Translations under genes and position numbers: made by a program
Shown here: positions 10,220-32,791 of the stretch, in pieces
Layout: each line of letters begins with the position of its first letter
Numbering within the stretch: the first letter of the stretch is position 1
The notes under the pieces: generated by a model
What the model saw: the letters and a program-made list of their open reading frames with translations, nothing else
Database searches by the model: none
What the model was told of the DNA's origin: nothing
DNA from: Teichococcus aestuarii
Lineage (GTDB): Bacteria; Pseudomonadota; Alphaproteobacteria; Acetobacterales; Acetobacteraceae
Assembly (NCBI RefSeq): GCF_003116135.1
Contig: NZ_PDOA01000024.1
Location: forward strand, 1 to 49,438
Direction of reading: 5' to 3'
DNA: 49,438 bases

Positions 10220-10261
10220 CATCGAACAGCAGCACGGGAAATGCGGGAGAACCCGGTTCTC
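9083..10261 (+). mobile_element. ISL3-family element, 5'-truncated
   Basis: The left boundary is the protein-level junction inside the imuA chimera. On the right, the sequence after the transposase stop (AACAGCAGCACGGGAAATGC, then GGGAGAACCC) is the terminal repeat; a related one occurs at the other ISL3 fragment near 42719. The left terminal repeat and the transposase N-terminus are lost, so it is not a functional unit. Confidence 0.7.
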
Positions 10262-10273
10262 AGTGGCAATCAA

Positions 10274-10485
10274 CAGCTTGGCTATTCGCAGGCAGTGGCC
10301 GTGGCGGCGAGCGGGCCGCGATGATCTACGCGCTCATCACCACCGCGAAGCTGAACGACGTCGACCCGCGCGCCTGGCTCGCCGATGTGCTCGCCCGCAT
10401 CGCCGACCATCCTGCCTCCAGGCTCGATGAACTTCTGCCCTGGAACTGGCAGCGCTCCCGAATGCCTGCGACCGCCGCCGCCTAA
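10274..10485 (+). pseudogene. IS66 TnpC transposase, C-terminal fragment
   Basis: The frame WLFAGSGRGGERAAMIYALI, followed by TAKLNDVDPRAWLADVL and a closing LDELLPWNW, is the conserved C-terminus of IS66 transposases. The 5' side is replaced by the end of the ISL3 element, so about 70 codons remain. It is not functional. Confidence 0.85.
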
Positions 10486-10527
10486 ACGTCAATCGCGGCA
10501 ATCACCGGATGAGTACCTCCATCAGCG

Positions 10528-10680
10528 GCTGGAGCAGCTGCTTCGGGGCTTCAATGCCGCCTACAATGCCCGCCGTAGGCTCACTCGTGGCAAGCCTGAA
10601 GGGCAGGCTGGGCCAGAAGACATCGCCAGGGCCTGCCTCATCGTGGAAAGCGCCAAGGACGTCTCACAACCCGACACTCG
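10528..10680 (+). pseudogene. IS481-type transposase remnant with internal deletion
   Basis: RLEQLLRGFNAAYNARR, then GPEDIARACLIVESAKD and VSQPDT, closely matches the C-terminus of the intact IS481 transposase at 33059, except that roughly 70 bases between the two blocks are deleted. The end CCGACA corresponds to the right end of that element. It is a decayed relative of the full copy. Confidence 0.75.
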
Positions 10681-10740
10681 CAGATCTCCGGCGAGATATG
10701 GGATGGAAGGGCTAGCTCTGCCTAGCGAGCAAGCGTGCTG

Positions 10741-11169
10741 TTGATGCGTCGGGTCGCCTCGTTCCAAAGCTGCCGCGGATCGAGCGCTTATTGCTGACAA
10801 TTATGGGGCTGCAGGCCTGGCCTAATCAATCCGACCAGCAGGCAGAAATCTGCACCCGGACAGGGGAAGGGGAGCAGGGGTCTGTGCCCCTAGGAACCCC
10901 GGGAGCACCGGAGAACAGGGGAGCACACGGAGCACGCGAGCACATGGAGCACCCGAAAATCTATTCATCTGACTGATATTGCTTTCGAATATTAAAATAA
11001 CCTGCGCCAAATCGCGCGTCCCATGAGAGCAAGGGCAGCAAATTCGCTATATCCAGTGCCCCCTACTGCCTCTTTAAGGCGATCCAATCCCGCGTTCTGC
11101 TGCGCCCAACCAATCATGTTCAGGACAGCGGCGCCATGGCATTTGGTCATCAGCAAGACTGTGCAGTGG
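10741..11169. other. Intergenic stretch, no gene seen
   Basis: It contains a repeated AGCAC/GGAGCAC word cluster (10900-10955) and an AT-rich patch (10960-11000) that could be the promoter of the following gene. No protein with recognisable features is encoded on either strand. Confidence 0.4.
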
Positions 11170-11763
11170 ATGAAGGTGATGGCTAACGGACGACAATCAA
11201 AGGCTAAACGGGCGAACATGGCTGAACGGGCTCAGCAGATGATGGAGGTGCACTTTCCGAATGTCTCGCCGGTCTTCCTGTGGCATCGCAAGAAGAACGA
11301 CGGCTTCACCACCATCCTCCGCACCATGCCCATCATCATGCAGGCGATCGACGATAACTCGAAGGGCACGCCGGCCGGGCACACCTTACTTTCGCTGTGG
11401 GCACGATCACCCGATCACTCGGTTGTGGTGATCGAGAACCCGTCTACCTTTGCCGCCGAAGCAGGCTTCATTGGCGAGCGCGCCGTAGATACGTGGCGCA
11501 AGCGCATGAAGAAGCTGCGTGAGATGTGGATGATCACGACGAAAGAGGGGCCATCGGGTGAATTCCATTATGTGCTTCTATGGAATCCCAACGTCGGCCT
11601 CGAATACATGAGGATGGCGAAGAAAGTACAGGACGGAGTTTATGGTCGATTTATTGATCAACTTATGGAAATTGGCGCATATTCAGATCTAGAAGAATTT
11701 CGCGAGTTTCTAAAGGAACACCAAGAAGCGGAAGCGCAGAAAGCTGCAGCGACTACAGTATAA
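11170..11763 (+). CDS. Winged-helix-like plasmid protein of unknown function
   Basis: 197 aa from MKVMANGRQS; a start at 11179 is equally likely. The middle part (LLSLWARSPDHSVVVIEN, FAAEAGFIGERAVDTWRK, LREMWMITTKEGPSGEFHY) has the spacing of a winged helix with a beta wing, reminiscent of RepA/RepC initiator domains. The C-terminus is an acidic helix. Codon usage is less GC-rich at the 3' end. It could be a small replication initiator or a regulator. It is followed by a terminator. Confidence 0.55.
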   Translation: MKVMANGRQSKAKRANMAERAQQMMEVHFPNVSPVFLWHRKKNDGFTTILRTMPIIMQAIDDNSKGTPAGHTLLSLWARSPDHSVVVIENPSTFAAEAGFIGERAVDTWRKRMKKLREMWMITTKEGPSGEFHYVLLWNPNVGLEYMRMAKKVQDGVYGRFIDQLMEIGAYSDLEEFREFLKEHQEAEAQKAAATTV

Positions 11764-13069: not shown

Positions 13070-14017
13070 CTAGCATTTTGGCAGAGAGCGAGATGCCACC
13101 AGTGTGAGCCGTCCGTTTCGCCCGGCCACCGGGGGATGGCTGGGCTTTAGGAGTAGACCTCGCTCCTCCTCGTCGATTTGGGCATCAGGGTAGACAGCGA
13201 GAGCCAATGAGAGGGTCTCGCGAAATTTACGGCGGAAGTTGTCAATCCTACCATAGCCCTGCCCAAACTGTGCGTAGAGCGCCCGCCAAGATACTGGTGT
13301 TGGCCCGCTCAGGGCATGTAACCGGTAGGCTAGCCAGCAATACACATCTAGTGCCATTGAGTTATTAGCGAGCTGCCGTACCGCTGATTCTTCGATAGGT
13401 ACGGGATGTTTTTTTAGCTGATCGTAGAAGGTCTGCGACAGCGTAGCGGTCTCGATAAACATCGAGCCCTTCTTATCGCCATCGTCTACGAACATCGCGG
13501 TATCTAGGATAAGCTGGTTGACCAGCCCTGCCCGCCCACCCTGCATGATCTGAAAGGACATACGGCAGCGGCTGATACGGTCAGCTTGGTCCCGTACGTC
13601 CCTCATGGATTTGCCGCCGATAGGAATAGATAGTCGCCGTAGCCAGGCGTGTAGTGAGCGTCCCAGTTCGATTTCGCGTGAGCTAGTGCGGAGCGCCTCT
13701 GATTGCAAATAGAGCAGAATCAGCCGGGCACGTGAGCCGTAGGGTACGCCGACATGCATAGGCGGACCGTCCTCGACTACCCGCACGCCGGGCTGCACTA
13801 TCAGCGTAACTCGGTCATTCTTTACTTGCCAGAGCGCATCGTCCGCTAAACGCTTGTGCGGTAAGGCCGCTAGTGCCCAGCCAGAATAGAGATAGCCAGT
13901 ATCAGCGTCCTCGCAGGCCAGATAGGCTGCAGCGGTATCGACCACTGTGCGGTCAATGTCGGCTTCAAGTGCCTTTTCTCTGCCGAACTCCAGCAGAAGC
14001 TGGTGGACGCTGCCCAT
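13070..14017 (-). CDS. repA: RepA-family plasmid replication initiator
   Basis: 315 aa. The region VGVPYGSRARLILLYLQSEA, with RSLHAWLRRLSIPIGG and MALDVYCWLAYRLHAL, is characteristic of plasmid RepA_C initiators, which bind iterons and open the origin. It is homologous to the truncated gene at 34056-34922, with the same motifs in the same order. It reads away from the repeat-rich region at 14078-14296 and the par operon, a typical initiator/iteron/partition layout. The start ATG at 14017 is the first in frame. Base composition is less GC-rich than the virB and copper genes, suggesting separate ancestry. Confidence 0.85.
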   Translation of the reverse strand: MGSVHQLLLEFGREKALEADIDRTVVDTAAAYLACEDADTGYLYSGWALAALPHKRLADDALWQVKNDRVTLIVQPGVRVVEDGPPMHVGVPYGSRARLILLYLQSEALRTSSREIELGRSLHAWLRRLSIPIGGKSMRDVRDQADRISRCRMSFQIMQGGRAGLVNQLILDTAMFVDDGDKKGSMFIETATLSQTFYDQLKKHPVPIEESAVRQLANNSMALDVYCWLAYRLHALSGPTPVSWRALYAQFGQGYGRIDNFRRKFRETLSLALAVYPDAQIDEEERGLLLKPSHPPVAGRNGRLTLVASRSLPKC

Positions 14018-14587: not shown

Positions 14588-15205
14588 ATGATGCACGTTC
14601 TAGTACTGGCGAGCCGCAAGGGCGGGGTGGGCAAGACCACCATCGCCTGCCATCTCGCCGTGGAGGCCGAGCGCAGCGGCGCCGGGCCGGTCGCGGTGAT
14701 CGACACCGACCCGATGCAAGGTATGGCGCAGTGGTGGGACAGCCGCACCGAGGAGACCCCGGCGCTGATCAAGGGCACGGTGGCCGAGGCCATCCCGACG
14801 CTGAAGAAGCAGGGCTTCAAGCTGCTGGTGGTCGATACCCCGCCTTCCATCGGGCCGGAGGTGGCCGAGGCCATCAAGCACGCCTCGCTGGTGATGATCC
14901 CGGTGCAGGCCAGCCCCAACGACCTGCGCGCAGTCGGCTCCACCGTTGAGGTGGTGAACGCCGCGAAGAAACCGCTCTCCTTCATCATCAACCGGGTGAA
15001 GCCGCGCGTGCGGCTGACCACCCAGGCCTATGAGGCACTGAGTCCGCACGGCACCATCGCGCCGCTGCTGGCCGACCGCACCGACTACGCAGCCGCCATG
15101 GTCGATGGGCTGACCGCCCCCGAGCTGGGCGGCAAGGGGCCAGTGCCGGAGGAGATCGGTGCCCTATGGGAATACACCGCAAAACGCCTGGAGCTGACCC
15201 CATGA
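14588..15205 (+). CDS. parA: ParA-family plasmid partition ATPase
   Basis: 205 aa. The deviant Walker A KGGVGKTT is at residues 11-18, the A' motif around VIDTDPMQG at 38-46, and Walker B LLVVDTPPS at 79-87. It lacks an N-terminal HTH, so it belongs to the short ParF-like class that uses a separate small DNA-binding partner. AAGGG lies 6 bases before the ATG. The stop overlaps the next gene (ATGA). ParA gradients on the nucleoid position plasmid copies. Confidence 0.92.
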   Translation: MMHVLVLASRKGGVGKTTIACHLAVEAERSGAGPVAVIDTDPMQGMAQWWDSRTEETPALIKGTVAEAIPTLKKQGFKLLVVDTPPSIGPEVAEAIKHASLVMIPVQASPNDLRAVGSTVEVVNAAKKPLSFIINRVKPRVRLTTQAYEALSPHGTIAPLLADRTDYAAAMVDGLTAPELGGKGPVPEEIGALWEYTAKRLELTP

Positions 15206-17953: not shown

Positions 17954-19450
17954 TCAGGCGATCGCGCCGCTGCTCTCCGGGAAGATGTACCAGGAGCCGA
18001 AGTCGCCGATACCCTCTACGTACTGGGGCCGATCGCCGAACATGAAGTCGGTTTGCCGCAGGTCACCCTTGGCGACACCCTCGAGCAGGATGGATCCCTC
18101 GAAGCCACCATCCTCGCCCATACCCCAGCCGATCAGGGCACCTTCAGCGGTGTCCCGCACCTCGACATCCTCAGCCTGTATGTCCATGAAGGCGATGTGG
18201 TCGAAGGCGCCCTGGGCATCGCCTGTGGCTTCAAAGTCCTGGACAACGTCGTGACCGCTGTTCATTGACACCATAAAGGCGTCAGCACCAGTGCCGCCCA
18301 CCAGGGTGTCATCGCCCATGCCACCGTTCAACATGCCATGTGCGGCGCCCTCATCGAGGTAGTCATCCCCGTCACCACCCATGAGCTCATCGGATTCTGC
18401 CCCGCCCGAGAGCCGGTCATCGCCAGCCTCGCCCATCAGGCGGTCCATACCGTCGCCGCCTGCCATGGTGTCGCGGCCGTCATCGCCCTGAAGATGGTCG
18501 TCCCCGGCCATGCCCGAGATGTTGTCATCTCCCGCCAGACCGAAGACGGTATCGTTCTTCTCCGACCCGCTCAGGGTATCCGCACCCGCAGTGCCGCGGA
18601 CCACTGCATCTTCGTCGATGTCGAACCGCAGGGTACGGTCGTTGAAAACATGGTCTACGAGCTGGTCAAAGACCGTTCCGGCCTGCACTTCACCGGAGAT
18701 CTCGGGGCCTGCCTCGCTGGCGGTGCGCGCCTCATCATTGGGGCCTGCTGGGTCCCTCAGACCGGGCGGCAGGTCGGGTGCGTCGGCGAACATAAAGTCG
18801 TCCTGCGCCAGATCCGACTTGGCCACGCCCTCCAGCAGGACGGAGCCGCGCTCCCAACTGACCTTAACCCCTTCAGCCGTATCCGCGACGCTGAGGTCCG
18901 TCCATTGAAGGCCATCCATGACCGCCAAGTGGTCGAACATGCCGGGACCGGCCGTGAAGTCCTTGATGACGTCATGGCCGCTCATCCGGCCAATCATGAA
19001 GGCATCTGGGCCGCCTCCGCCAACCAGGGTGTCGTCACCCATACCGCCGTCGACGGTGCTGTGCCCTTCACCCTCGTCGAGGTAGTCATCTCCGGCGCCC
19101 CCGCGCAGGGTGTCGGCGCCCGGTCCACCGTAGAGGGTATCGTTGCCATCGCCGCCCTCGACCTCATCATCGCCCATGTTGCCGGAGACGAGGTCGGCGC
19201 CAGGACCGCCGTGGAGGATGTCCTCCATGCCGCCTCCGCCGATCCGGTCGTCACCCTCAAGGCCCCAGGTGAACTCCGCGCCTTCGCTGCCGCCCAAGGT
19301 GTCCTTGTTCTCACCGCCGAAGGTGATGTTGTGGACGTGACCACTGGCCTCGAAGTCGAAATGCAGGCCTCCCAGGGCGCCGTGGAGGGTATCAGCTACC
19401 CGATCCGTAAGGTTCGTTAGGAAGCAGCTGAGATGCTGGTTTTGGCTCAT
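17954..19450 (-). CDS. RTX (hemolysin-type calcium-binding) protein with two tandem modules
   Basis: 498 aa, very acidic. Nonapeptide repeats GGxGxDxLx fill about residues 60-150 (for example GGDGNDTLYGGPGADTLRGG) and again 288-390. Each array is followed by a homologous closing segment (SGHDVIKDF..., VLLEGVAKSDLAQDDFMFAD / ILLEGVAKGDLRQTDFMFGD). Calcium folds such arrays into beta-rolls after secretion through a type I system. There is no N-terminal signal, as expected. No type I transporter genes are in the window. No enzymatic domain is visible, so the role (adhesin, S-layer-like, metal buffering) is open. Confidence 0.85.
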   Translation of the reverse strand: MSQNQHLSCFLTNLTDRVADTLHGALGGLHFDFEASGHVHNITFGGENKDTLGGSEGAEFTWGLEGDDRIGGGGMEDILHGGPGADLVSGNMGDDEVEGGDGNDTLYGGPGADTLRGGAGDDYLDEGEGHSTVDGGMGDDTLVGGGGPDAFMIGRMSGHDVIKDFTAGPGMFDHLAVMDGLQWTDLSVADTAEGVKVSWERGSVLLEGVAKSDLAQDDFMFADAPDLPPGLRDPAGPNDEARTASEAGPEISGEVQAGTVFDQLVDHVFNDRTLRFDIDEDAVVRGTAGADTLSGSEKNDTVFGLAGDDNISGMAGDDHLQGDDGRDTMAGGDGMDRLMGEAGDDRLSGGAESDELMGGDGDDYLDEGAAHGMLNGGMGDDTLVGGTGADAFMVSMNSGHDVVQDFEATGDAQGAFDHIAFMDIQAEDVEVRDTAEGALIGWGMGEDGGFEGSILLEGVAKGDLRQTDFMFGDRPQYVEGIGDFGSWYIFPESSGAIA

Positions 19451-19547: not shown

Positions 19548-19880
19548 TCAAGCGCTCATCTCGCGGCAGGACGCGGCGCACTTGCGGCACTGTGCGACGC
19601 AATCCTCCATGCCGCCGACGGCCTCGCAGCTTGCGGCGCACTCTTCGCAGATTGCGGCGCACTCGGCACAGGTGTGCTTATGGTGGTGCGTGCCGATCAG
19701 CATCATGTCAGCGGCCGTCTGGCAGATGGTGGCGCAAGCCATCATCAGCCTGAAGTGTTGCGGCTCCACGTGCTTGCCGCCTGCTTCGATGCAGTGGTTC
19801 ATGGCCATGCCCAGGCAGGTGGAGTGACAGCGCAGGCATTCCTCAATGCAAGCCTGCATGGCGGAGGTCATCTGGTGCAT
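19548..19880 (-). CDS. DUF326 four-helix-bundle, cysteine-rich copper-storage-like protein
   Basis: 110 aa starting at MHQMTSAMQ, with AGAGGAAAAAACG as ribosome site (the longer start at 19961 is unlikely). About 12 Cys and 11 His residues line the helices (ACIEECLRCHSTCLGM, TCAECAAICEECAASCEA, CVAQCRKCAASC). The Csp1/Csp3 family binds many Cu(I) ions in the core of such bundles. The lack of a signal peptide points to a cytosolic Csp3-like form. The neighbouring copper island supports the function. Confidence 0.85.
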   Translation of the reverse strand: MHQMTSAMQACIEECLRCHSTCLGMAMNHCIEAGGKHVEPQHFRLMMACATICQTAADMMLIGTHHHKHTCAECAAICEECAASCEAVGGMEDCVAQCRKCAASCREMSA

Positions 19881-20046
19881 CGTTTTTTCCTCTGAAAGAT
19901 CGTCGTGATGGGGCACACCGGATGGCATGGCCGTTCCGATGGCGCTCAAAGGCCGAGGCAACGTCCTGCATGACCTTAACGGGCAAGGCGGGCGATCCTG
20001 GCTTTCTGTCCTGAAGCTGAGAGCGGATCAGGACTGCTCGGACGTC

Positions 20047-20454: not shown

Positions 20455-20728
20455 CAACGGTGTGTCCCAGCGTCCTACAGACCTCACTGTAAGGAATAAT
20501 CGGCCTGCTGGTTTCGATGCGGGGGACACAATTCACGGTGTGCATGCGAATGCACAGCATCTATGCCGCTCACAAACAAGCACGGTGCCCACGAGTCACT
20601 TCGATCGACATATCAGGACTCAGTCGGGCAGTGCCGGTGCTGAGTTCGTACAGTTCCCGCTTGTGGTTGAATAGCTCCGTCTCGTATTGTTACTCACAAG
20701 CACCACCCATCCCAGGGCACTTCAAAAC
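20455..20728. other. Divergent promoter region
   Basis: Spacer of 274 bases between the minus-strand exported protein and the plus-strand nuclease. No gene or clear dyad is seen. An AGGGC ribosome-like site lies just before the nuclease ATG. Confidence 0.35.
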
Positions 20729-22042
20729 ATGGACTTCGCAACAGACTTCCCGGCCTTCTCGGGAAGGATGGACCTGGCTGACCCACTGGCTGTTCTGCTG
20801 CGGCGTTGGCGCGATGATTCAGGGGCTACATACCGAACATGGTTCCTGTGGGAAGAGCGGGTTAAGAACTTCCGTTCCATCCGCCGCGGCATTCAGCAGG
20901 TTGTCGCAGAAATCAAAGCAGGCACCTTCGGCGTTGCCTACCGCGGATCTTCCCTGGAGACGATAGTTCACTCCATCGCGGAGCAACGGCAGATCTTCAG
21001 GGGCGCAGATCATGCTTTCTTGTGGAAGCCCAAGCTGCGTATCCCAGACATCTACGAAAATCCGGAGAACCAGCGCGCCTTCGGGCGCCTGCTCGACACC
21101 TGCGTCTGCTGCACCACCGAACAGCAAGTCATCGCGGCAATCGCCGAGATCGACGCGAAGCATATCAAGGGGCTCGGCCCGGCTGTAGCAAACCTCCTTT
21201 ACTTTCTGCACCCGACCATTGTGCCGCCCTTCAATACGGCGATCGTAAATGGCTACAACACACTGACTGCTGCGAAGGTAAAGCTAGGTCGCTGGGACGA
21301 GTATCTAACCATGCGGCGAGGCATTCTTGCCTTGAATGCTGCCCACCGCGGCCTACTCTCGAATGACCTTGGTGCGATCGGAGGCTTGCTCTTCGACGTC
21401 GGCAGCGGCCGGTATCCGGCGCCTCCGCGGGAGGATGATGTGGCGGCGCGCGCCGCCTGGGAGGCAGACCTCGCTCGGGTACGCGAAGAGGGCGCTAAGG
21501 CGGCCAAGGCACTGGCTGAGGCGCGCCAGGAGGATGAGACTCACACCCAGATCCAAGGCTGGCTCCGCGACCTTGGCCTGTCGCTCGGCTTCGACGTCTG
21601 GATTGCGGCAAACGACCGCAACCGCTCGCTCAATGGTGGCAAGCTGGGCGATGGCTGCTTGGTTTCGCTTCCGGGATTCGACACCGGCTCCGGTCCTGAC
21701 GCTGTCCGGCTCATCGACGTGCTGTGGTTGGATAAGCCGACGAAGCACATCGTGGCGGCTTACGAGGTCGAGCATTCGACCTCGATCTACTCCGGAATCG
21801 TGCGGATGCTCGACCTCGCGCTCGGGCCGGAGGCGCATGCGCTCGAGGGCATGTTCCTAGTGGCACCAGATGGCCGGGAGGGTGAGGTCCGGGATCAGCT
21901 ATCCCGCCCCGCCTTCTCCCGCGTTGCCGACCTCAAAGTGCGGTATCTGCCTTACGGTGAACTCAAAGCGAACAGGGAAAGCATTGCCAAGTTCGGCCAT
22001 GGAATGAAGCCGATCCAGGCCATTGCGCGCGAGCTCGTCTGA
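20729..22042 (+). CDS. Predicted PD-(D/E)XK nuclease with HhH-like region; candidate defence gene
   Basis: 437 aa from MDFATDFPAFSGRMDL. Residues 145-177 (KHIKGLGPAVANLLYFLHP, then PFNTAIVNGYN) resemble a helix-hairpin-helix DNA-binding unit like that of DNA glycosylases. Residues 238-270 are a likely coiled coil. The C-terminal domain has LIDVLWLD (D330) followed by AYEVEHSTSIYSGIVRMLDL (E346 and E348), a D...ExE arrangement of PD-(D/E)XK restriction-like nucleases. No methyltransferase is adjacent. It stands alone on the plus strand among metal genes. It may be a modification-dependent or standalone restriction enzyme. Activity is predicted from motifs only. Confidence 0.65.
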   Translation: MDFATDFPAFSGRMDLADPLAVLLRRWRDDSGATYRTWFLWEERVKNFRSIRRGIQQVVAEIKAGTFGVAYRGSSLETIVHSIAEQRQIFRGADHAFLWKPKLRIPDIYENPENQRAFGRLLDTCVCCTTEQQVIAAIAEIDAKHIKGLGPAVANLLYFLHPTIVPPFNTAIVNGYNTLTAAKVKLGRWDEYLTMRRGILALNAAHRGLLSNDLGAIGGLLFDVGSGRYPAPPREDDVAARAAWEADLARVREEGAKAAKALAEARQEDETHTQIQGWLRDLGLSLGFDVWIAANDRNRSLNGGKLGDGCLVSLPGFDTGSGPDAVRLIDVLWLDKPTKHIVAAYEVEHSTSIYSGIVRMLDLALGPEAHALEGMFLVAPDGREGEVRDQLSRPAFSRVADLKVRYLPYGELKANRESIAKFGHGMKPIQAIARELV

Positions 22043-22158: not shown

Positions 22159-22419
22159 TCAGACGTTTTTCTGAGGCTTATCGTGCCCCATTCTGGGCTC
22201 AGCCTGCCAACCCCGCGCGCTATGCCCCTCATGCCCATCGTGGCCATGGTGCATGAACAGGTGCATCAGCGGGCAGGCCAGGAGGAGCAGATATGGCAGC
22301 GCTCCGAAGGCGTGCGCGTAATGTTCCCGCAGGACATAGAACGCTGCGACCAAGCAGAAGCCGATCACGGCGACGCCGACCTTGGTGCGCCACCATGGCG
22401 TTGTTGTATGGTCATGCAT
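22159..22419 (-). CDS. DUF2933 small membrane protein
   Basis: 86 aa from MHDHTTTPWWRTKVG. One or two hydrophobic segments (VGVAVIGFCLVAAFYVL and ALPYLLLLACPLMHLFMHH) end in a His-rich tail (HHGHDGHEGHSARG). DUF2933 proteins typically sit in copper and heavy-metal resistance clusters; the biochemical role is not known. The start at the MHDHT ATG is preferred over 22473. It follows the P-type ATPase on the same strand after 137 bases and may share its regulation. Confidence 0.8.
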   Translation of the reverse strand: MHDHTTTPWWRTKVGVAVIGFCLVAAFYVLREHYAHAFGALPYLLLLACPLMHLFMHHGHDGHEGHSARGWQAEPRMGHDKPQKNV

Positions 22420-22556
22420 CTTGGATTCCCTTTCCGGATCCGGATTATGTCCGCTGCTCTGGCTACCTAGCATTGATTTGGCTCAAGGTACCTGAATTCG
22501 AGTGGCAGATTCCTTCCAGAACTGCGGCTGCGGCCCTTCGCCAAGTAGGGCCGGTG

Positions 22557-24938
22557 CTACAAACGGACTGCTCGCAAACGCAGCGAGTTCCCGATCACCG
22601 AGACCGAGCTCAGCGCCATGGCCAGGGCCGCGACGATGGGGCTGAGCAGGAGGCCTAGCAGCGGGTAGAGCACGCCCGCCGCCAGCGGCACCCCGGCCGC
22701 GTTGTAGACGAAGGCAAAGAACAGGTTCTGCCGGATGTTGCGCATCACCGCGCGCGACAGGTGCCGCGCCCGCGCGATGCCGGCGAGGTCGCCTTTGACC
22801 AGCGTCACACCCGCGCTCTGCATGGCGACGTCCGTACCAGTACCCATCGCGATGCCGACGTCAGCCTCCGCCAGCGCCGGGGCATCGTTGACGCCGTCAC
22901 CCGCCATGGCAACGACCTTTCCCTGGGCGCGGAGCTCCCGAACGATGCGGTGCTTGTCCTCGGGCAGCACGTCGCCCTGGAACTCATCGATGCCGAGCCT
23001 GCGGGCCACTGCCTCCGCCGTTGTGCGGTTGTCGCCCGTCAGCATGACGATGTGAATGCCCTCGGCGCGCAGGCTCTCGAGCGCGGCGGGCGTCGTCTGC
23101 TTCACGGGGTCAGCGACCGCGATGACGCCGCCCGGCTTGCCGTCCACCGCCAGGAACAGCGCCGTGCCGCCCTCATGCCGGAGATCCTCGGCCTTGGCGG
23201 CGAGCTCGCCCAGTTCCACGCCAAGCTCCCGCATCAGCCGCGCATTGCCCAGCGCGACCCGGCGCCCACCGACGGTACCGGTCACGCCCTTTCCGGTGAC
23301 GGAGGCGAAGTCGGCGGGCTCGCCGAAGGCCACGCCGCGCTCCTTGGCGGCCGCCACCACGGCCGCCGCCAGCGGATGCTCGCTGGACCGCTCCAGGCTG
23401 GCGGCCAGCGGCAGCACCTCGGCTTCGGTCAGACCGGGCGCCGGGACCACGGCCACCACCTTGGGCTTGCCCTCGGTCAGGGTGCCTGTCTTGTCGACGA
23501 CCAGCGTGTCCACCTTCTCCATGTGCTCGAGCGCCTCGGCGCTCTTGATGAGCACACCCGCCGTCGCGCCCTTGCCGACGCCGACCATGATGCTCATCGG
23601 CGTGGCTAGGCCGAGCGCGCAGGGGCAGGCGATGATGAGCACCGAAACGGCGGCGATCAGGCCATAGGAGAGCGCCGGGGACGGGCCCCAGGTCGCCCAG
23701 GCCACGAAGGCCAGCACCGCGACGACGATGACGGCCGGAACGAAGTAGCCGGACACGGTGTCGGCCATGCGCTGGATGGGTGCCCGGCTGCGCTGCGCCT
23801 CGGCGACCATGGCGACAATGCGCGAGAGCATGGTGTCGGAGCCGACCTTATCGGCCCGCATCACCAGCGCGCCGGTGCCGTTCACGGTGCCGCCGATGAC
23901 GTTGGACCCCGGCGCCTTCTCCACGGGCAGGGATTCCCCGGTGACCATCGACTCATCGACGGCGCCGCTCCCCTCCAGCACCTCGCCATCCACCGGCAGG
24001 CTGTCGCCCGGCCGCACGCGCAGCCGGTCACCGAGCTGCACCTCGGCCAGCGCGATTTCCTCGTCCGAGCCGTCCGCACGGATGCGCCGCGCCGTCTTGG
24101 GGGCCATGTTCAGCAGGGCGCGGATAGCGCCGCCCGTCTGCTCGCGGGCGCGCAGTTCCAGCACCTGGCCAAGCAGGACGAGCACCGTGATGACAGCGGC
24201 CGCCTCAAAGTAGACGGCCACGGTGCCCTCGGGGCCACGGAAACCCTCGGGGAAGACCTCGGGCGCGAAGGTGGCAACCAAGCTGTAGAGGTACGCGGCG
24301 CCGGTGCCGAGCGCGATCAGGCTGAACATGTTCAGGCTGCGGTTCACCACCGATTGCCAGCCGCGCAGGAAGAACGGCCAGCCCGCCCAGAGCACGACCG
24401 GCGTGCCGAGGAGGAACTGGAGCCACACGGAGATCCTGGGTGACACCAAGTGATGGAGGTCGAGGCCGGGGATGTGCGCGCCCATCTCGAGGACGAGGAT
24501 GGGGAGGGTCAGCAGGAGGCCGACCCAGAACCGCCGGCGCATGTCGGCAAGTTCCTCGCTCGGCGCGGCTTCGGCGGTGACCTCCAGCGGCTCCAGGGCC
24601 ATGCCGCAGATCGGGCAGTTGCCCGGCCCTTGCTGGCGGATCTCCGGGTGCATCGGGCAGGTGTAGATGGCCGCCTTCTGCGCCGTCGTCGGCGCGGCCG
24701 CCGTCTCCGGCTTCAGGTACTTGTCCGGCGCCGCCTCGAACTTCGACTTGCACCCTGCCGAGCAGAAGTGGAACGCGGTGCCGTGATGCTGGAGGTGGTG
24801 TGGCGTCTTAGCCGGGTCGACCGTCATGCCGCAGACAGGGTCATGGACGGCAGCCTGATCGCCATGGGCTGGCGCATGCCCCCCCCGGTGTGCGCCGTGT
24901 CCATTATGATGGTCGTGATGGTGGTGGTGCTCGTCCAT
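22557..24938 (-). CDS. P1B-type Cu(I)-exporting ATPase with N-terminal YHS and metal-binding domains
   Basis: 793 aa from [15 protein letters not shown]. After a His-rich start come a YHS domain ([10 protein letters not shown]...[10 protein letters not shown], about 34-76) and a CPMHP...CPICGM metal-binding domain (92-117). The transport core has TGES, the CPC membrane motif ([11 protein letters not shown]), DKTGT with the phosphorylated Asp, HP in SSEHPLAAA, and [10 protein letters not shown]. It exports cytoplasmic Cu(I). There is no classical HMA domain; the YHS arrangement is typical of cop-island ATPases. It is divergent from copZ across CueR-like dyads. Confidence 0.95.
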
Positions 24939-24995
24939 CGGCCATTCCTCCGCGACTGCTGTGCTCGTCGTGCTTGGCTGCTCCCAGAGGATGGA

Positions 24996-25018
24996 GTTTC
25001 CCATTGTGGGAAGGTCAA
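24996..25018 (-). promoter_or_regulatory. CueR/MerR-type operator-promoter for the copper ATPase
   Basis: On the minus strand, TTGACC (-35) overlaps the dyad CCTTCCCACAATGGGAA, the spacing seen in CueR-type elongated promoters. The dyad half-sites ACCTTCCC/GGGAA are typical of Cu(I)-responsive MerR regulators. No CueR gene lies in the window, so a chromosomal or off-window regulator is implied. Confidence 0.65.
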
Positions 25019-25046
25019 GACATGCAACAGAGATATCTCCGCCACC

Positions 25047-25072
25047 TTGACCTTCCCATGGGGGCAAGCCCC
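25047..25072 (+). promoter_or_regulatory. CueR-like operator in front of copZ
   Basis: TTGACCTTCCCATGGGGGCA is almost the same left half-site in the plus direction, with a weaker right half. Together with the site above it would allow coordinated divergent induction. No good -10 is visible at 19-base spacing, so the promoter may be weak. Confidence 0.5.
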
Positions 25073-26546: not shown

Positions 26547-27026
26547 TCACACGACTTCCAAGCCGCGGAAGCGCATCCATGGCCGCCAGGCGCCGTTCCG
26601 ACCAAAGGCGACGACGTCATAGGTCGAGGGCGGAGATCCCGGCATCTCCATGCCTGGCACGCCAATAGGCATCTCGGGCACGGCGAGCCCGGCGACCCCC
26701 TCGGGCTTTTCCCTGAGCAACCGCCGGATGGCGGCCACGGGAACATGGCCCTCCAGGGCGTAGCGGCCGACCTTTCCGGCGTGGCAGGAGATCAGGTCGG
26801 AAGGCGTCCCGAGTGCCTGCCGGTGCGGGCCGACGGCATCCACCACCTTGTCGTCCACCTCGAAACCCTCGTCCCGCAGGTGCGCGACCCAGCCGCCGCA
26901 GCAGCCGCAGTTGCGGTCCCGCCAGGCTTCCACCTTGGGCGGGCCGCCACAGGCGGCGGGGAGCACGGCCAGACCGAGCAAGCCAATCGTGAGGTTCCGG
27001 CGCGTGCTCCAGGGGTGCATCGTCAT
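26547..27026 (-). CDS. DUF411 metal-binding protein
   Basis: 159 aa. An N-terminal signal (STRRNLTIGLLGLAVLPAAC) is followed by VEAWRDRNCGCCGGWVAHLR with the CGCC cluster, then the conserved SCHAGKVGRYALEGHVP and GLAVPEMPIGVPGMEM. DUF411 proteins sit next to copper and silver resistance genes and probably act as periplasmic metallochaperones. It is 4 bases downstream of the kinase and part of its operon. Confidence 0.85.
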   Translation of the reverse strand: MTMHPWSTRRNLTIGLLGLAVLPAACGGPPKVEAWRDRNCGCCGGWVAHLRDEGFEVDDKVVDAVGPHRQALGTPSDLISCHAGKVGRYALEGHVPVAAIRRLLREKPEGVAGLAVPEMPIGVPGMEMPGSPPSTYDVVAFGRNGAWRPWMRFRGLEVV

Positions 27027-27030
27027 TCTC

Positions 27031-28266
27031 CTAGGCGGATCGGGGCAAGCGGATGCTGGCGCGAAGGCCGCCGCCCGTGAGGTTCTGAAGCGTCACCGAT
27101 CCGCCATGGCGGCCGACCGCTTGGCGGGCGATGGCCAAGCCGAGGCCAGAGCCGCCGGTCCGGCGATTGCGCGAGTGCTCCAGACGGTAGAAAGGCTGGA
27201 AGACCCGCTCCAGCTGCTCCTCCGGCACCCCTGGCCCGGCGTCGTCGACATGGACGACGAGCTCCCGCCCCAGATCAGACAGCGTGACCCGGGCCGAGGT
27301 GCCGTACTTCACCGCGTTGTCGATGATGTTGGCGAAGGCGCGCTTCAGGGCGATGGCCCGGCAGGGCAGCCGTGCCTGCGGTGGTCCCTCATAGATCACC
27401 GACTTGCCCATGTCCTCAGCGTTGCCGCAGAGGGTCTGGAGCATCGCCGCGATGTCGGCGGACCGCACCTCCTCCTGCTCCTCGTCGCCCCGTAGGTAGG
27501 CCAGCGTGGAGCCGATCATGGCGTCCATCTCGTCGAGGTCGGCGTCGATCTGCCTTTGCGTTTCGGCGTCATCCAGGAAGCCCGCGCGCAGCCGCAGCCG
27601 CGCCAGAGGGGTCCGGAGATCGTGGCTGACGGCCGCCAGCGCCTGGGTCCGGTCGGCGATGAGGCGGTCGATGCGCGCTTGCATGCGGTTGAAGGCCTGC
27701 GCCGCCTGCCGGACCTCCCGGGGCCCCTCCTCGGGCACGGTGACCGTCTGCCCCGGCCTGCCGATGCGATCGGCCGCGTTAGAGAGCTCCCGCAGCGGCC
27801 GCGCGATGAGGCGCACCACCAGCAGGCCCAGCACCAGGATGCCGAAGGCCATCGCGGTGGTGGAGAGCAGCGTCGCATGCTCCGGCTGCGCTTGCAGAGG
27901 GTCGGCGTGGTACCAGAGGTGGCTGCCATCCGGCAGATCGACCGTGCCTTCAGCCTCCAGGTGGCCCGAATGGGCAAGATCTTGCGCTGCAACGGCGCCC
28001 GCCGCGCCACCGGGTTGCCAGCGCACCTGGAAGCCCGGCGACGACAAGGCCTGCGCCACGGCCTCGCGGGCGTCTTGCGGCACCATGCCGATGGCGCGGG
28101 CAGCGGCGGCAACCCGCTCAGCAGTGACGTTCTGCTGCGTGCTGCCCAGCAGGATGTCGCTGCCCGTCTGATGCAGCCACAGGCTGCCGACGTGGAAGGC
28201 CATCAGGCCGACCAGTAGCACCAGGATGATACGTCCGGCCAGGGTGCTGGGCAGCAGCCGCCTCAT
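27031..28266 (-). CDS. copS: Two-component sensor histidine kinase, copper-responsive (CopS/CusS-like)
   Basis: 411 aa. TM1 about residues 12-31, a periplasmic loop to about 130, TM2 about 133-154, then HAMP (about 154-206). The HisKA motif AAVSHDLRTPLARL has the phosphorylated H215. ATPase boxes are NIIDNAVKYG (313-322), DDAGPGVPEE (341-350) and GGSGLGLAIA (371-380). It autophosphorylates and passes phosphate to the response regulator. ATGA overlap with the regulator gene indicates coupling. Metal specificity is inferred from neighbours. Confidence 0.9.
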   Translation of the reverse strand: MRRLLPSTLAGRIILVLLVGLMAFHVGSLWLHQTGSDILLGSTQQNVTAERVAAAARAIGMVPQDAREAVAQALSSPGFQVRWQPGGAAGAVAAQDLAHSGHLEAEGTVDLPDGSHLWYHADPLQAQPEHATLLSTTAMAFGILVLGLLVVRLIARPLRELSNAADRIGRPGQTVTVPEEGPREVRQAAQAFNRMQARIDRLIADRTQALAAVSHDLRTPLARLRLRAGFLDDAETQRQIDADLDEMDAMIGSTLAYLRGDEEQEEVRSADIAAMLQTLCGNAEDMGKSVIYEGPPQARLPCRAIALKRAFANIIDNAVKYGTSARVTLSDLGRELVVHVDDAGPGVPEEQLERVFQPFYRLEHSRNRRTGGSGLGLAIARQAVGRHGGSVTLQNLTGGGLRASIRLPRSA

Positions 28267-29042
28267 CCGCGCGTAACGGTCGGAACGAACATGTAACCAG
28301 CGCTACGGATCGTCTTGATAATGGAAGGGCTATCGGCGAGCGGTTCCAGCTTGCGCCGGAGGCGGCTGACCATGACGTCCACCGAGCGGTCGACGCTGTC
28401 CGAGATCCGGTTGCGGGCGAGGTCTAACACTTGGTCGCGCGACAGTACGCGCTGCGGGTGCTCGCAAAAGGCCAGCAGCAGGTCGTACTCGCCGCTGGAC
28501 AGGTCGACGGCCGAGCCGTCGGGAGCTGTGAGTTCCCGCCTTCGGGTGTCGAGCACCCAGTTGGCGAAGGTCATCCGGTCTCCCATCGTCACGCCGGTAC
28601 GCCCTGTTCCGGCCTGGGCGCGCCGCAACACAGCCCGGATGCGAGCCAGCAGTTCTGGCCGACTGAAGGGCTTGGGGATGTAGTCATCGGCACCCAGCTC
28701 GAGTCCCGCGACCCGGTCCGCCTCCTCTCCCCGAGCGGTCACCATGATGATGGGAACCTCTGTCTTCGCGCGTAGTGCCCGGCAGAGGTCGAGCCCGGAC
28801 TGCCCCGGCAGCATCACGTCGAGCAGCACGAGATCCACGGAGGATAGCGCCAGAGTGTCCCACATCTCGGCGCCATTGCGGGCGCCGGTGACCCGGTAGC
28901 CGTTCTGTCGGAGGAACTTGGCGATAAGGATGCGCATTTCGCCATCGTCTTCGACAACGAGGATGTGCGCATCGGGAAGCAGCGGGCTGCCCCGCCCCTC
29001 CCGCTCGCTTGCAGGGCTAACCGGCTGCACCTGCCAAAGCAC
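28263..29042 (-). CDS. copR: OmpR-family response regulator (CopR-like)
   Basis: 259 aa from a GTG. The receiver domain has acidic residues E31/D32/D33 and the phospho-acceptor D75 (VLLDVMLPG), with the conserved Lys in PKPFSRPEL. The C-terminal winged helix ends in RLRRKLEPLADSP and IKTIRSAGYMFVP. The first 20 residues are unusual and overlap the upstream cupredoxin stop, so a downstream GTG or TTG may be the true start. It probably controls the operon it lies in. Confidence 0.9.
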   Translation of the reverse strand: MLWQVQPVSPASEREGRGSPLLPDAHILVVEDDGEMRILIAKFLRQNGYRVTGARNGAEMWDTLALSSVDLVLLDVMLPGQSGLDLCRALRAKTEVPIIMVTARGEEADRVAGLELGADDYIPKPFSRPELLARIRAVLRRAQAGTGRTGVTMGDRMTFANWVLDTRRRELTAPDGSAVDLSSGEYDLLLAFCEHPQRVLSRDQVLDLARNRISDSVDRSVDVMVSRLRRKLEPLADSPSIIKTIRSAGYMFVPTVTRG

Positions 29043-29480: not shown

Positions 29481-30248
29481 TCAGAAGAACAACCGGACGC
29501 CAGTTACGAAGTTCCACGCTCCCACCTGCTCACCTTCTTCGCGAGCATAGCGGGCAGTATCTCCAATCTTGCGTTCGTAGTTGATCCCAATATAGGGCGC
29601 CACTTCGCGAGTGACCTCGTAGCGGAGGCGGAAACCGGCTTCCACGTCATTTATGCCGCTACCGACACCCAGTTCCGGAACCTTTTGAAGTGCGAAATTG
29701 GCCTCCACGTTCGGCTGGAGCACAAGCCGCTGCGTGATGTAGACATCATAGGAAACTTCGGCCCGTGCGGACAGATCCCCCTCCTGGCTGACGAAGCCCT
29801 GAAGGCCGACCTCAAACAGCCCGGGCGCTAACCCTTGCAGCCCGATGACGCCATAGGCGCGGTTCGGAAGCGGCCGAATATCATAGCGGACACCAGCTTG
29901 GATGTCCCAGTAGTAGCCGAGCAGACGCGAGTAGAGCAGCTGAATCTCCGCCTGCTCGACGCGCCCGCTGCGGGTGGTCTCGCCTTCCGTCCTCAACCAC
30001 ACGCGATCCGTGTCGCCGCCGTACCAGGCTTGGCCATCCCAGCGGCCGACATTGGGCCCGTCGAGCCCAAAACCGTACTCTAAGGTCTCGAACAGCACCG
30101 CGCCGGTGTAGACCTCATGGCTAAAGGGCGGCTCGGTGCTGTGCTGCATCGCCTGCGCGCGGGCGGTGCTAGCCCCGAAAGACAGCATGATGGCCGTTCC
30201 TGCAGCCAATCCCATCCGCTGGAAGTTCATCCCTGGCATGCGCTTCAT
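29481..30248 (-). CDS. copB: Copper resistance protein CopB (outer membrane)
   Basis: 255 aa from MKRMPGMNFQRMGLAAG. A signal peptide precedes the CopB domain (HSTEPPFSHEVYTGAVLFETLEY..., LLYSRLLGYYWDIQAGVRYD, ...GVRLFF). The C-terminal aromatic ending fits an outer-membrane beta-barrel. The Met-rich N-terminal copper-binding repeats of classical CopB are missing, so it is a short form. The ATG overlaps the copA stop by 4 bases (ATGA). Confidence 0.92.
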   Translation of the reverse strand: MKRMPGMNFQRMGLAAGTAIMLSFGASTARAQAMQHSTEPPFSHEVYTGAVLFETLEYGFGLDGPNVGRWDGQAWYGGDTDRVWLRTEGETTRSGRVEQAEIQLLYSRLLGYYWDIQAGVRYDIRPLPNRAYGVIGLQGLAPGLFEVGLQGFVSQEGDLSARAEVSYDVYITQRLVLQPNVEANFALQKVPELGVGSGINDVEAGFRLRYEVTREVAPYIGINYERKIGDTARYAREEGEQVGAWNFVTGVRLFF

Positions 30249-32185
30249 CCTGCGGAGGCGGTTCGAGGGGAGTTGACGACGGAGATCTTGCGCATCATGC
30301 CGGTTTCCATGTGGTAGAGCATGTGGCAATGGAAGGCCCAGCCGCCCGGTGCATCGACCTCCATGTCGATATCCAGGGTTGACCCCGGCTTGATATTCAC
30401 CGTGTGTAGCAGCGGGTTCTCGGCTCCGTTGCCCACCTGCGGGATCATCCACATGCCGTGAATGTGCATAGGATGGGCCATCATCGTCTCATTGACGAAG
30501 CGGAAACGAACCCGCTCACCGAGGTGCAGTTGGATGGGCTGCGCCTGGCTGAAGCTGTTGCCGTTGATGGACCAGAAGTACCGCTCCATGTTGCCGGTCA
30601 GCCGGATCTCGATGACGCGGGTTGGCTCGCGCACCGGGTAAAGCGGCTTGGCGGCGCGCAGGTCGCGGTAGGACAGCACGCGGGCACCCGGCGGCGCGCC
30701 GACGTCGTTCACCAGCGGGTCCGGCATTGCCATGCCGCCATGGCCCATGGCGCCGTGGTCCATTCCGGCCATGGCACCGGCGCCCGCCGCGCCATTGTTC
30801 ATGCCGGGCATGTTGCCGTGGTCCATGCCCGCCATGCCGCCCATGGCACCGTGGTTCATCCCGGGCATGGAGGAGTGGTCCATGCCAGCCATGCCTCCAT
30901 GATTCATGTCGCCCATGGAGCCGCCCTGCATGCCCTGGGAGCCTCCGGCGGGCATCTGCATGGAGGAGTGGTCCATCCCCCCCATGCCGCCCATGTCCAT
31001 AGGTGCGACGTGGCCCGGGGCGTCCACCTCCGGCATCGGGGTGCCGCGATCCAGGCCGCTGGGCCCGTAGTTCATGCCCATGTCGGCCATGGTCAGCACG
31101 GGACGCGGACGGTGTGGTGGCAGCGGCAGGGCAGGCAGGCCTTCCTGCGTCGCCAGGCTGAACTGCGCGAAGCCCTGGCGGCCCATGGACTCTGCCAGCA
31201 TCTGGTACTGGCGCCCGTCGCGGGGGCGCACCAGGACGTCGAAGGTCTCGGCCGGGGCAATGCGGAACTCGTCCACGGTTACGGGGCGCACGTTGTTGCC
31301 GTGCGCCTGAACCACCGTCATCTGCAGCCCGGGGATCCGGACGTCAAAGTGCGTCATGGCGCCGCTGTTGATGAACCGCAGGCGCACCGTCTCGCCCGGC
31401 CGGAACACGCCGGTGAAGTTCTGGGCCGGGGTATAGCCGTTGACCAGATAGGTGTAGCCGCCGACGTCCTCGATGTCGGTGGGGTCCATCCGCATGTCGC
31501 CCCACATGATGCGGTCGGAGACGATGGCAGAGCGCGCGGCGGCGTCCGGCGCCCGGCGGAGCTCGCCGACCAGGCTGGCCAGGGTGCGCTTGTTGTAGTT
31601 GTAGTAGCCGGGGTCGCGCTTGAGGTTGGCGATGACATGGCTCGGCGTCTCGTCCGTCCAGTCAGACAACTGGACGATGTAGTCGCGGTCATAGCCGAAA
31701 GGCTCCGGCGTCGCGGGGTCGATGACGATGGAGCCGTAGATGCCGGACTGCTCCTGCACGCCCGAGTGGCTGTGGTACCAGTAGGTGCCGGCCTGGACGA
31801 GCGGGAAGCGGTACTGGTGCGTGCCGCCCGCGTCGATACCCTGGAATCCGTCGCTGATGCCGGGCACGCCGTCCTGGCTGCTCGGCAGAATCAGGCCATG
31901 CCAGTGGATCGAGGTGTGCTCGCGCAGCCGGTTGGTGACGTTGATCACCACCTCTTCGCCCTCGCGGAAGCGCAGGACGGGTCCCGGGATCTGCCCGTTG
32001 ATGGCCATGGCCGGGCGGCGGCGCCCGGTGATGTTGGCCGTCACGTGGGACAGGGTCAGGTTGAACTCGCGCGGCATCGCCCGCCCGACGGCGGGCTGCG
32101 CCAGGGCGCCGGACGCGGCCGGGAACGCCAGGGCAGCCACGCCAAGGCCCAGTGCCTGCCGCCTGCTCAAGGTTCTGTCGTGCAT
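30245..32185 (-). CDS. copA: CopA multicopper oxidase
   Basis: 646 aa from MHDRTLSRRQALGLGVAAL, a twin-arginine signal. Copper motifs are HWHG (about 94-97), YWYHSHSG (135-142), HPMHIHGMW and HCHMLYHMETGM at the C-terminus, giving the type 1 and trinuclear sites. Residues about 375-480 are a Met/His-rich linker with MDHSSM, MNHGAM and MDHGNM repeats, much longer than in many homologues. It oxidises and sequesters periplasmic Cu(I). Operon overlap with copB. Confidence 0.95.
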   Translation of the reverse strand: MHDRTLSRRQALGLGVAALAFPAASGALAQPAVGRAMPREFNLTLSHVTANITGRRRPAMAINGQIPGPVLRFREGEEVVINVTNRLREHTSIHWHGLILPSSQDGVPGISDGFQGIDAGGTHQYRFPLVQAGTYWYHSHSGVQEQSGIYGSIVIDPATPEPFGYDRDYIVQLSDWTDETPSHVIANLKRDPGYYNYNKRTLASLVGELRRAPDAAARSAIVSDRIMWGDMRMDPTDIEDVGGYTYLVNGYTPAQNFTGVFRPGETVRLRFINSGAMTHFDVRIPGLQMTVVQAHGNNVRPVTVDEFRIAPAETFDVLVRPRDGRQYQMLAESMGRQGFAQFSLATQEGLPALPLPPHRPRPVLTMADMGMNYGPSGLDRGTPMPEVDAPGHVAPMDMGGMGGMDHSSMQMPAGGSQGMQGGSMGDMNHGGMAGMDHSSMPGMNHGAMGGMAGMDHGNMPGMNNGAAGAGAMAGMDHGAMGHGGMAMPDPLVNDVGAPPGARVLSYRDLRAAKPLYPVREPTRVIEIRLTGNMERYFWSINGNSFSQAQPIQLHLGERVRFRFVNETMMAHPMHIHGMWMIPQVGNGAENPLLHTVNIKPGSTLDIDMEVDAPGGWAFHCHMLYHMETGMMRKISVVNSPRTASAG

Positions 32186-32230
32186 CACTCTCTTCTCACT
32201 CCAGGCGGCCAACCGAGGCCTTGTCCAGGA

Positions 32231-32791
32231 TCAGCGTGCGAAATCCACCTTGCCCACCATGCCGGACTCGTAGTGACCCGGGATGTTGCAGGCGAACTCC
32301 AGGGTGGCGGCCTTGGTGAACTTGAAGATCATCTCCTCGGTCTTGCCGGGATCAACCAGCACCGCATTCGGGTCGTCGTGGCGCATCGCGCCATGGTTCA
32401 TGGCGCCATGGTTCATCCCAGGCATCTTGGAGTGGTCCATGCCAGCCATGGCGTCCTTGCTGGTCGCCGACATCATGCCGCTGTCGAACATGGCCTGCAT
32501 CTCGCGCTGGTGCTGCTGGTGCATGGCCGCGGTGCCGATGTTGAACTCGTGCAGGAGCTCGCCCGCGTTGCGCACCCGGAAGCGGACAGTCTCGCCAGCC
32601 CGAACCTGAATCCGCTGCGGCTGGTATGAGTTGTCCCGCATGACGACATCAATGGTGCGCTTGACATCTTGGGCGCGGCCGCGAGTGCCGAAAGCTTGGT
32701 AGGCGGAGTCCGCCACGGCGGGGGACACGTTGATTGCGGCGACGCCCAGAGCCATCAGTGCTGCAGTCGCTAGGCTGGTGCGGAAACCCAT
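32231..32791 (-). CDS. Periplasmic cupredoxin of the CopI type
   Basis: 186 aa. Signal MGFRTSLATAALMALGVAAI, then a cupredoxin domain with RAGETVRFRVRNAGELLHEF and C-terminal ligands Cys-His-Met in FACNIPGHYESGM. A Met/His insertion (MAGMDHSKMPGMNHGAMNHG) sits between them. CopI-like proteins confer copper tolerance, mainly in Proteobacteria cop clusters. It is the first gene of the cop operon, with the promoter presumably in 32792-32953. Confidence 0.85.
   Translation of the reverse strand: MGFRTSLATAALMALGVAAINVSPAVADSAYQAFGTRGRAQDVKRTIDVVMRDNSYQPQRIQVRAGETVRFRVRNAGELLHEFNIGTAAMHQQHQREMQAMFDSGMMSATSKDAMAGMDHSKMPGMNHGAMNHGAMRHDDPNAVLVDPGKTEEMIFKFTKAATLEFACNIPGHYESGMVGKVDFAR

Follow-up and report, generated by a model that had tools for sequence, protein, structure and literature searches.

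We show that the gene at 20768..22042 on the forward strand of the 49,438-nucleotide window analysed here, the Teichococcus aestuarii contig NZ_PDOA01000024.1, encodes a protein of the CopL family in which a predicted DNA-glycosylase-like domain is joined to a PD-(D/E)XK nuclease. We regard this anatomy and the linkage of the gene to metal genes as very probable, and we read the family as an accessory of mobile copper-resistance loci. What such a component does can be proposed only tentatively: the pseudo-glycosylase reader, the nuclease, an apparently constant DNA feature and the setting of copper stress suggest a role directed at DNA damage or adducts, to which we assign somewhat less than even chances. 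Our confidence in both statements was lowered slightly by a stricter recount of the copper markers.

A first-pass annotation had described an open reading frame (ORF) of 437 amino acids at 20729-22042(+), which is real and of that length; the frame is open as far 5' as a TTG at 20687. Since the alignment of most homologues begins only at about residue 16-23 of this form, the ATG at 20768 (residue 14) appears a likelier start than the ATG at 20729. In comparisons with three homologues, the ratio of non-synonymous to synonymous substitution rates (dN/dS) is 0.05, 0.09 and 0.06 (dS exceeds 1 in two of these comparisons), and these low values indicate that the protein is under purifying selection. 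Its parts, numbered on the 437-residue form unless stated otherwise, are:

20768..22042 (+): CopL-family protein, 424 amino acids from ATG 20768 or 437 from ATG 20729
20768..21445 (+): N-terminal HhH-GPD (OGG2-like) domain, residues 1-226 of the model, predicted fold
21101..21112 (+): C125-x-C127-C128 motif, a possible metal site
21161..21259 (+): helix-hairpin-helix and next segment, residues 145-177, KGLGPAVAN...VPPFNTAIVNGYN, from sequence and conservation
21182..21184 (+): A152, which aligns by eye with the catalytic lysine of OGG
21233..21235 (+): N169, which aligns by eye with the catalytic aspartate of glycosylases
21440..21583 (+): long helix or coiled-coil linker, residues 238-285, from the structure model
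21539..22039 (+): PD-(D/E)XK nuclease domain, residues 271-437, holding D330, E346 and E348

Linkage to copper was scored with 51 marker proteins, which come from the surroundings of the gene in nine plasmids and from the window and hence favour genes found there. Markers were counted in at most 8 kb on each side of the gene in 80 genome loci, the top 80 among 195 relatives that a single scan of GTDB species genomes confirmed; this set is rich in Sphingomonas, and its first locus is approximately the window itself. One or more copper or metal markers lay at 64 of the 80 loci versus 1 of 33 control loci of Mrr_cat nucleases, all from Alphaproteobacteria (Fisher p 4e-15, without correction for kinship), and pumps of the CusA/CzcA family add three loci (67/80). 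Because of the excess of Sphingomonas, loci with similar flanks were merged into 51 non-redundant neighbourhoods, 41 of which held a marker. A stricter set, from which P-ATPase, HMA, regulator and DUF305 markers were omitted as not specific to copper, was represented at 49/80 loci and in 27/51 neighbourhoods compared with 0/33 controls (p 3e-8 by neighbourhood), or at 55/80 loci and in 32/51 groups when the CusA/CzcA-family pumps were included. An annotated metal-handling gene was also found in 16 of 17 plasmid regions, which were picked to span taxa rather than at random and one of which holds merely a 31% fragment. The plasmid contexts include the cop1 cluster of pMOL30, the Enterococcus tcr cluster, and loci of Listeria, Deinococcus, Hymenobacter, Rhodococcus, Lactococcus, Roseomonas mucosa and Sphingomonas; the Streptomyces region has only a metal-sensitive regulator and an HMA protein, and that of Magnetospirillum an RND efflux system for which no substrate is stated.

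A named homologue is copL (Rmet_6120) in the cop1 cluster of Cupriavidus metallidurans pMOL30, at 181088-182353. The two proteins share 65% identity over 96% of their length, and copL likewise lies in a copper cluster next to P-ATPase and DUF2933 genes, so that full-length homology and copper-gene surroundings both place the window protein in the CopL family. We identify the pMOL30 homologue as copL because an antisense start mapped in that gene at 181,548, according to the available text of PMC7563307, falls within these coordinates.

The C-terminal part is a restriction-type PD-(D/E)XK nuclease, as had been proposed from the D330...E346-x-E348 motif. This motif is present as ID(330)VLWL...E346-V-E348-HSTSIYSGIVRM, in a signature ending E348HSTSIYSGIVRM, and D330, E346, E348, T351, S355 and R359 are identical in 34/34 aligned members and also in L087, a distant relative. 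The conserved catalytic residues and the alpha/beta core thus agree with the PD-(D/E)XK superfamily. The PADLOC profile REase_II (PDLC03534) matches with E 2.6e-11, at residues 271-411 only (profile positions 177-319 of 351), and the VIA fold comparison matched the cleavage domains of BspD6I and FokI, from which the window protein differs in its other N-terminal domain and in having no methyltransferase partner in sight. Scans of the protein against Pfam and NCBIfam gave no family match, and the best PHROGs hits reached only E 0.25 and 0.33.

The N-terminal domain has a predicted all-helical HhH-GPD fold that is closest to 8-oxoguanine glycosylases (OGG2). In the fold search, rows 1-33 are DNA glycosylases or their homologues (33 entries but 11 different proteins), and the first unrelated row has rank 34. 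The helix-hairpin-helix at 145-177 that had been noticed earlier is indeed there, but as part of a glycosylase-like domain of about 200 residues, and its earlier reading as a non-specific DNA-binding unit has to be given up, as the whole N-terminus matches DNA glycosylases. Enzymes of the OGG/EndoIII type carry the pattern G-x-G-x-K...(V)D-x-H. We lined up KGLGPAVAN...VPPFNTAIV by eye with this pattern, and position 152 is presumably that of the catalytic lysine and position 169 that of the catalytic aspartate. Among 34 aligned homologues, residue 152 is alanine in 31, threonine in two and serine in one, and residue 169 is asparagine in all; on this alignment by eye, the family has neither the aspartate that follows the hairpin in HhH-GPD enzymes nor the lysine of bifunctional OGG. 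The window protein therefore resembles MjOgg, TmOgg and SsOgg in predicted fold (157-166 aligned residues of 205-214) but differs from them by these replacements, by its fusion to a nuclease and by an identity of only 9-13%. A glycosylase fold that lacks the catalytic residues and is joined to an active-looking nuclease suggests that the domain is probably a base reader. It is also the better conserved part of the protein: of 561 sequence pairs, which are not independent, 552 show higher identity in it than in the nuclease (means 72% versus 63%; L087 was excluded from the residue counts and from this comparison). The coiled coil proposed at 238-270 is predicted to be helical, and the model extends it to one long helix at 238-285 (225-272 in model numbering). 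Matches of the protein to HR1 helices of coronavirus spike in phmmer and hmmsearch runs against PDB sequences (best E 0.005 and 1e-6) were rejected as chance helix matches because the fold searches give glycosylases.

From these features we derive the following possible mechanism. The dead glycosylase domain would flip or sense a particular base state, either a lesion or a modification, and would deliver the nuclease to cut nearby, as nucleases with EVE or SRA readers do. The target could be a constant feature that the cell's own DNA shows under copper stress, such as an oxidised base or one carrying a copper adduct. In restriction enzymes the specificity domains tend to diversify, so the stronger conservation of the reader domain than of the nuclease favours a constant target here. 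Since the reader is conserved and the gene tracks copper, a target in the cell's own DNA would be likelier than the variable modifications of phages. The wider proposal that mobile copper resistance has a DNA-directed arm, in which a disarmed reader of lesions or adducts resembling 8-oxoguanine glycosylase guides a nuclease and is perhaps gated by copper through the CxCC motif, is put forward with considerable reserve.

The first-pass annotation saw instead a defence gene carried as cargo, and the alternative that best survives is a modification-dependent, type IV-like restriction enzyme, whose glycosylase-like reader would recognise modified bases of phage or foreign DNA and whose nuclease would serve defence on copper plasmids. 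We consider this possible but doubtful. The REase_II match agrees with it, several homologues are annotated as type II restriction endonuclease, and L087 (634-2016) and L103 (460-2049) are distant relatives in which a homologous nuclease follows another N-terminus, the one in L103 with a weak match to the EVE modified-base domain (20.6 bits, cut-off 23). Because these relatives share the nuclease and differ in the N-terminus, one nuclease seems to be paired with exchangeable base readers, and modification-dependent cutting stays plausible, if less probable. EVE-PD(D/E)XK proteins are regarded as putative type IV enzymes in the portion of PMC7641849 available to us. L103, and similarly L087, share with the window protein the nuclease and its D...ExE-x-xTxxYSGxxRM signature. 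However, no PUA-superfamily reader (EVE or SRA) is present in the window protein, which is without Pfam match and has a glycosylase-type fold instead, and, unlike most CopL-family loci, L087 and L103 have no copper markers on the short stretches examined. DNA glycosylases serve phage defence as well, as the accessible text of PMC11078745 describes, but the glycosylase centre of the window protein looks dead and it is the nuclease that would cut.

The neighbours of the homologues speak partly for restriction. In Gluconacetobacter azotocaptans (L020, 9478-13390), Hachiman HamA and HamB genes lie directly downstream of the homologue at a locus without copper markers, and in L033 the homologue adjoins a helicase. 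However, among 150 neighbouring ORFs (20 of 170 were left out, ORFs above 1000 amino acids being skipped), the PADLOC families recur at most three times (mad2 3, PDC-S31 2, others 1 each, among the 25 of 46 listed), whereas the commonest Pfam family is the P-type ATPase with 11/150. The metal linkage, set against 1/33 for the Mrr loci, and the stronger conservation of the recognition domain likewise argue against a defence gene carried as cargo, which is not the best-supported explanation. Phage records gave no match, and 17 stretches of IMG/VR that matched the two peptide patterns used there were not confirmed, although absence from phages is compatible with defence. The earlier remark that no methyltransferase is adjacent holds for DNA methyltransferases in the regions examined: no such family is among the 25 most frequent of the 152 Pfam families in the 150 neighbouring ORFs, and no cognate DNA methyltransferase, as expected of a type II restriction-modification system, is annotated in the 17 plasmid regions. 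Six genes in these regions are named methyltransferase; three of the four scanned are of the Methyltransf_11/25 type and one is without Pfam match, and the two unscanned are a pMOL30 gene 8.6 kb away and an isoprenylcysteine carboxyl methyltransferase. On a Hymenobacter plasmid (L093, 11297-12493), a second gene annotated as restriction endonuclease directly follows the homologue and is PADLOC negative. Taken together, this is a widely spread, selected family, and neither its anatomy nor its context favours simple phage defence.

A second alternative is that copL-like genes are general accessory genes of plasmids that are often found with metal genes since plasmids are rich in them. This is unlikely, yet it accounts for the 13 marker-free loci (L003, L005, L018, L020, L021, L023, L025, L026, L029, L033, L034, L035 and L043, several on short contigs) and for the 15 of 80 with weak markers only, among them those of Planctomycetota (L041, with an additional partial pump match) and Myxococcota (L039). 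It would also explain an unlinked homologue of 77% identity in another alphaproteobacterial genome (L169 in G086), with no copper marker in 16 kb and with neighbours that look chromosomal by eye. Moreover, the distance to the nearest copper ATPase on ten plasmids, which carry 2 to 6 ATPase matches each, was not significant (p 0.07), and for this reason a broader marker test was run. On five complete plasmids out of these ten (those of Enterococcus, Listeria, Roseomonas mucosa, Streptomyces and Rhodococcus were left out), and with the tested plasmid's own markers removed, 4-7 markers lay within 8 kb of the gene compared with 0.65-1.5 expected at random positions; single p values were 0.04-0.19 and the combined p was 0.002, which argues against mere hitchhiking. 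Gene order varies, with the ATPase upstream or downstream and on either strand, and the association is therefore not one frozen segment. In a midpoint-rooted tree of 60 rows, reduced from 87 by dropping L025 (internal stop), sequences below 390 amino acids and near-copies of at least 97%, the outer branches are copper-linked. The nine tips without copper linkage lie scattered in this tree, with five in the Acetobacter-Komagataeibacter clade, and show no clustering beyond shuffles. Even a degraded partial second copy in the window's own genome (L082, G000:C25:33122-33691, five stops) adjoins P-ATPase, DUF411, four-helix and CueR markers.

A copper-gated nuclease, in which Cu(I) on the CxCC motif would switch cutting on or off for plasmid maintenance or copper-triggered DNA turnover, is improbable: the three cysteines are conserved in 32, 31 and 31 of 34 homologues (positions 125, 127 and 128) and CopL has been called a cys-rich cytosolic protein (PMC7563307, in the text available), but homologues from Enterococcus and Listeria lack the motif and the one from Hymenobacter has it only in part, and all of these lie in copper loci.

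In the accessible parts of PMC7563307, CopL of pMOL30 is known only by that cys-rich description, and a start site with a putative CopR1-type motif was mapped for the gene itself. With a metal mix, copL is among the genes whose sense and antisense transcripts were up-regulated (PMC11647585, accessible text). The CopL protein, like ten other cop1 products, went undetected in PMC11647595 (accessible text). The coordinate 181,983 given for a start 14 bp upstream of Rmet_6120 in the part of PMC9045368 at hand suggests that the older gene model is too short and probably lacks about 128 N-terminal codons of the reader domain. The claim that the gene is undescribed is thus only half right: a homologue already has the name copL, but the accessible copL literature gives neither a function nor a copL mutant. 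We found no publication that treats copL as a nuclease of copper loci in a search lying outside most subscription journals and the original pMOL30 papers.

Several points count against a role directed at DNA damage or adducts. Acute copper does not up-regulate copL, unlike the rest of cop1 except copE (PMC7563307, in the text available). CueR-type operators were found at 3/91 loci, which is not above chance, and there is no common operator. A study by Macomber et al. 2007 reportedly also speaks against such a role, judged by its title. No CopY operator (TACANNTGTA) was present within 200 bp upstream of the Gram-positive copies L090, L091 and L096, and near the window gene no sigma-70-like promoter was found and terminator-like sites were no more frequent than in shuffles. 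On pMOL30 (L089, 11705-12000), an exact CueR-type inverted repeat lies between copL and the divergent DUF2933 and ATPase genes; judged by eye from its direction, it probably serves the ATPase side.

Explanations of copper resistance usually centre on pumps, oxidases and metal-binding proteins. The presence in these loci of a conserved nuclease whose reader derives from repair suggests that plasmids manage the effects of copper on DNA, or couple metal selection to restriction. A base reader fused to a nuclease is of a known kind, and the copper-resistance setting is an unexpected place for it. The database label 'type II restriction endonuclease' probably misleads for the CopL family. If the DNA-directed role is true, these proteins would represent a class of metal-resistance protein that acts on DNA rather than on metal and is spread by plasmids across phyla. 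An orphan cop gene would thereby gain a testable mechanism, and whether copper toxicity reaches DNA in cells highly exposed to copper would become testable.

The surroundings in the window agree with the earlier placement of the gene on a plasmid among metal-resistance genes. On the basis of the RepA_C and ParA genes, the contig is judged to be a plasmid or plasmid-derived. The earlier statement that no partner gene is adjacent misleads, since copper genes flank the gene on both sides:

13070-14017 (-): RepA_C replication protein
14588-15205 (+): ParA-type ATPase
17954-19450 (-): protein of 498 amino acids that has six stretches of RTX calcium-binding repeats and adjoins the copper genes
19548..19961 (-): four-helix-bundle copper-binding-like protein, without Pfam or NCBIfam match, 59% identical to a gene so annotated in Sphingomonas FARSPH
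22159..22473 (-): DUF2933 protein, which recurs next to the gene in copper clusters (Pfam PF11666, 1.8e-23)
22557..25067 (-): Cu-type P1B ATPase with YHS and HMBD domains (TIGR01511, 597 bits, cut-off 397)
26547..27026 (-): DUF411 protein (Pfam PF04214, 2.9e-21)
27031..28266 (-): sensor histidine kinase
28263..29042 (-): OmpR-type response regulator
30245..32212 (-): CopA multicopper oxidase (TIGR01480, 672 bits, cut-off 479)
32231..32791 (-): cupredoxin (Pfam PF13473/PF00127)

The family is rare and patchy, and widely spread. Homologues occur in 6/58 genomes of relatives and in 4/385 of the class, the window's own genome being counted in both and some being recognised only by the nuclease part or by fragments. 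Among the best 80 of the 195 relatives, identity is 83-99% in Roseomonas and kin and 67-79% in Azospirillum, Acetobacter and kin, Sphingomonas, Gemmatimonadota, Planctomycetota, Acidobacteriota, Myxococcota and others. Plasmid records matched at E 1e-3 in 181 of 72,556 cases, and in 169 of the 181 a single place spans 80% or more of the length; Enterococcus accounts for 65 of them, and Streptomyces, Rhodococcus, Deinococcus, Hymenobacter, Listeria and Lactococcus are represented among the 60 records listed. The copy on a Lactococcus lactis plasmid (L096, about 10001-11185) is broken across frames and without annotated gene, and lies inside a copper operon, on the operon strand and between two small metal-binding genes.
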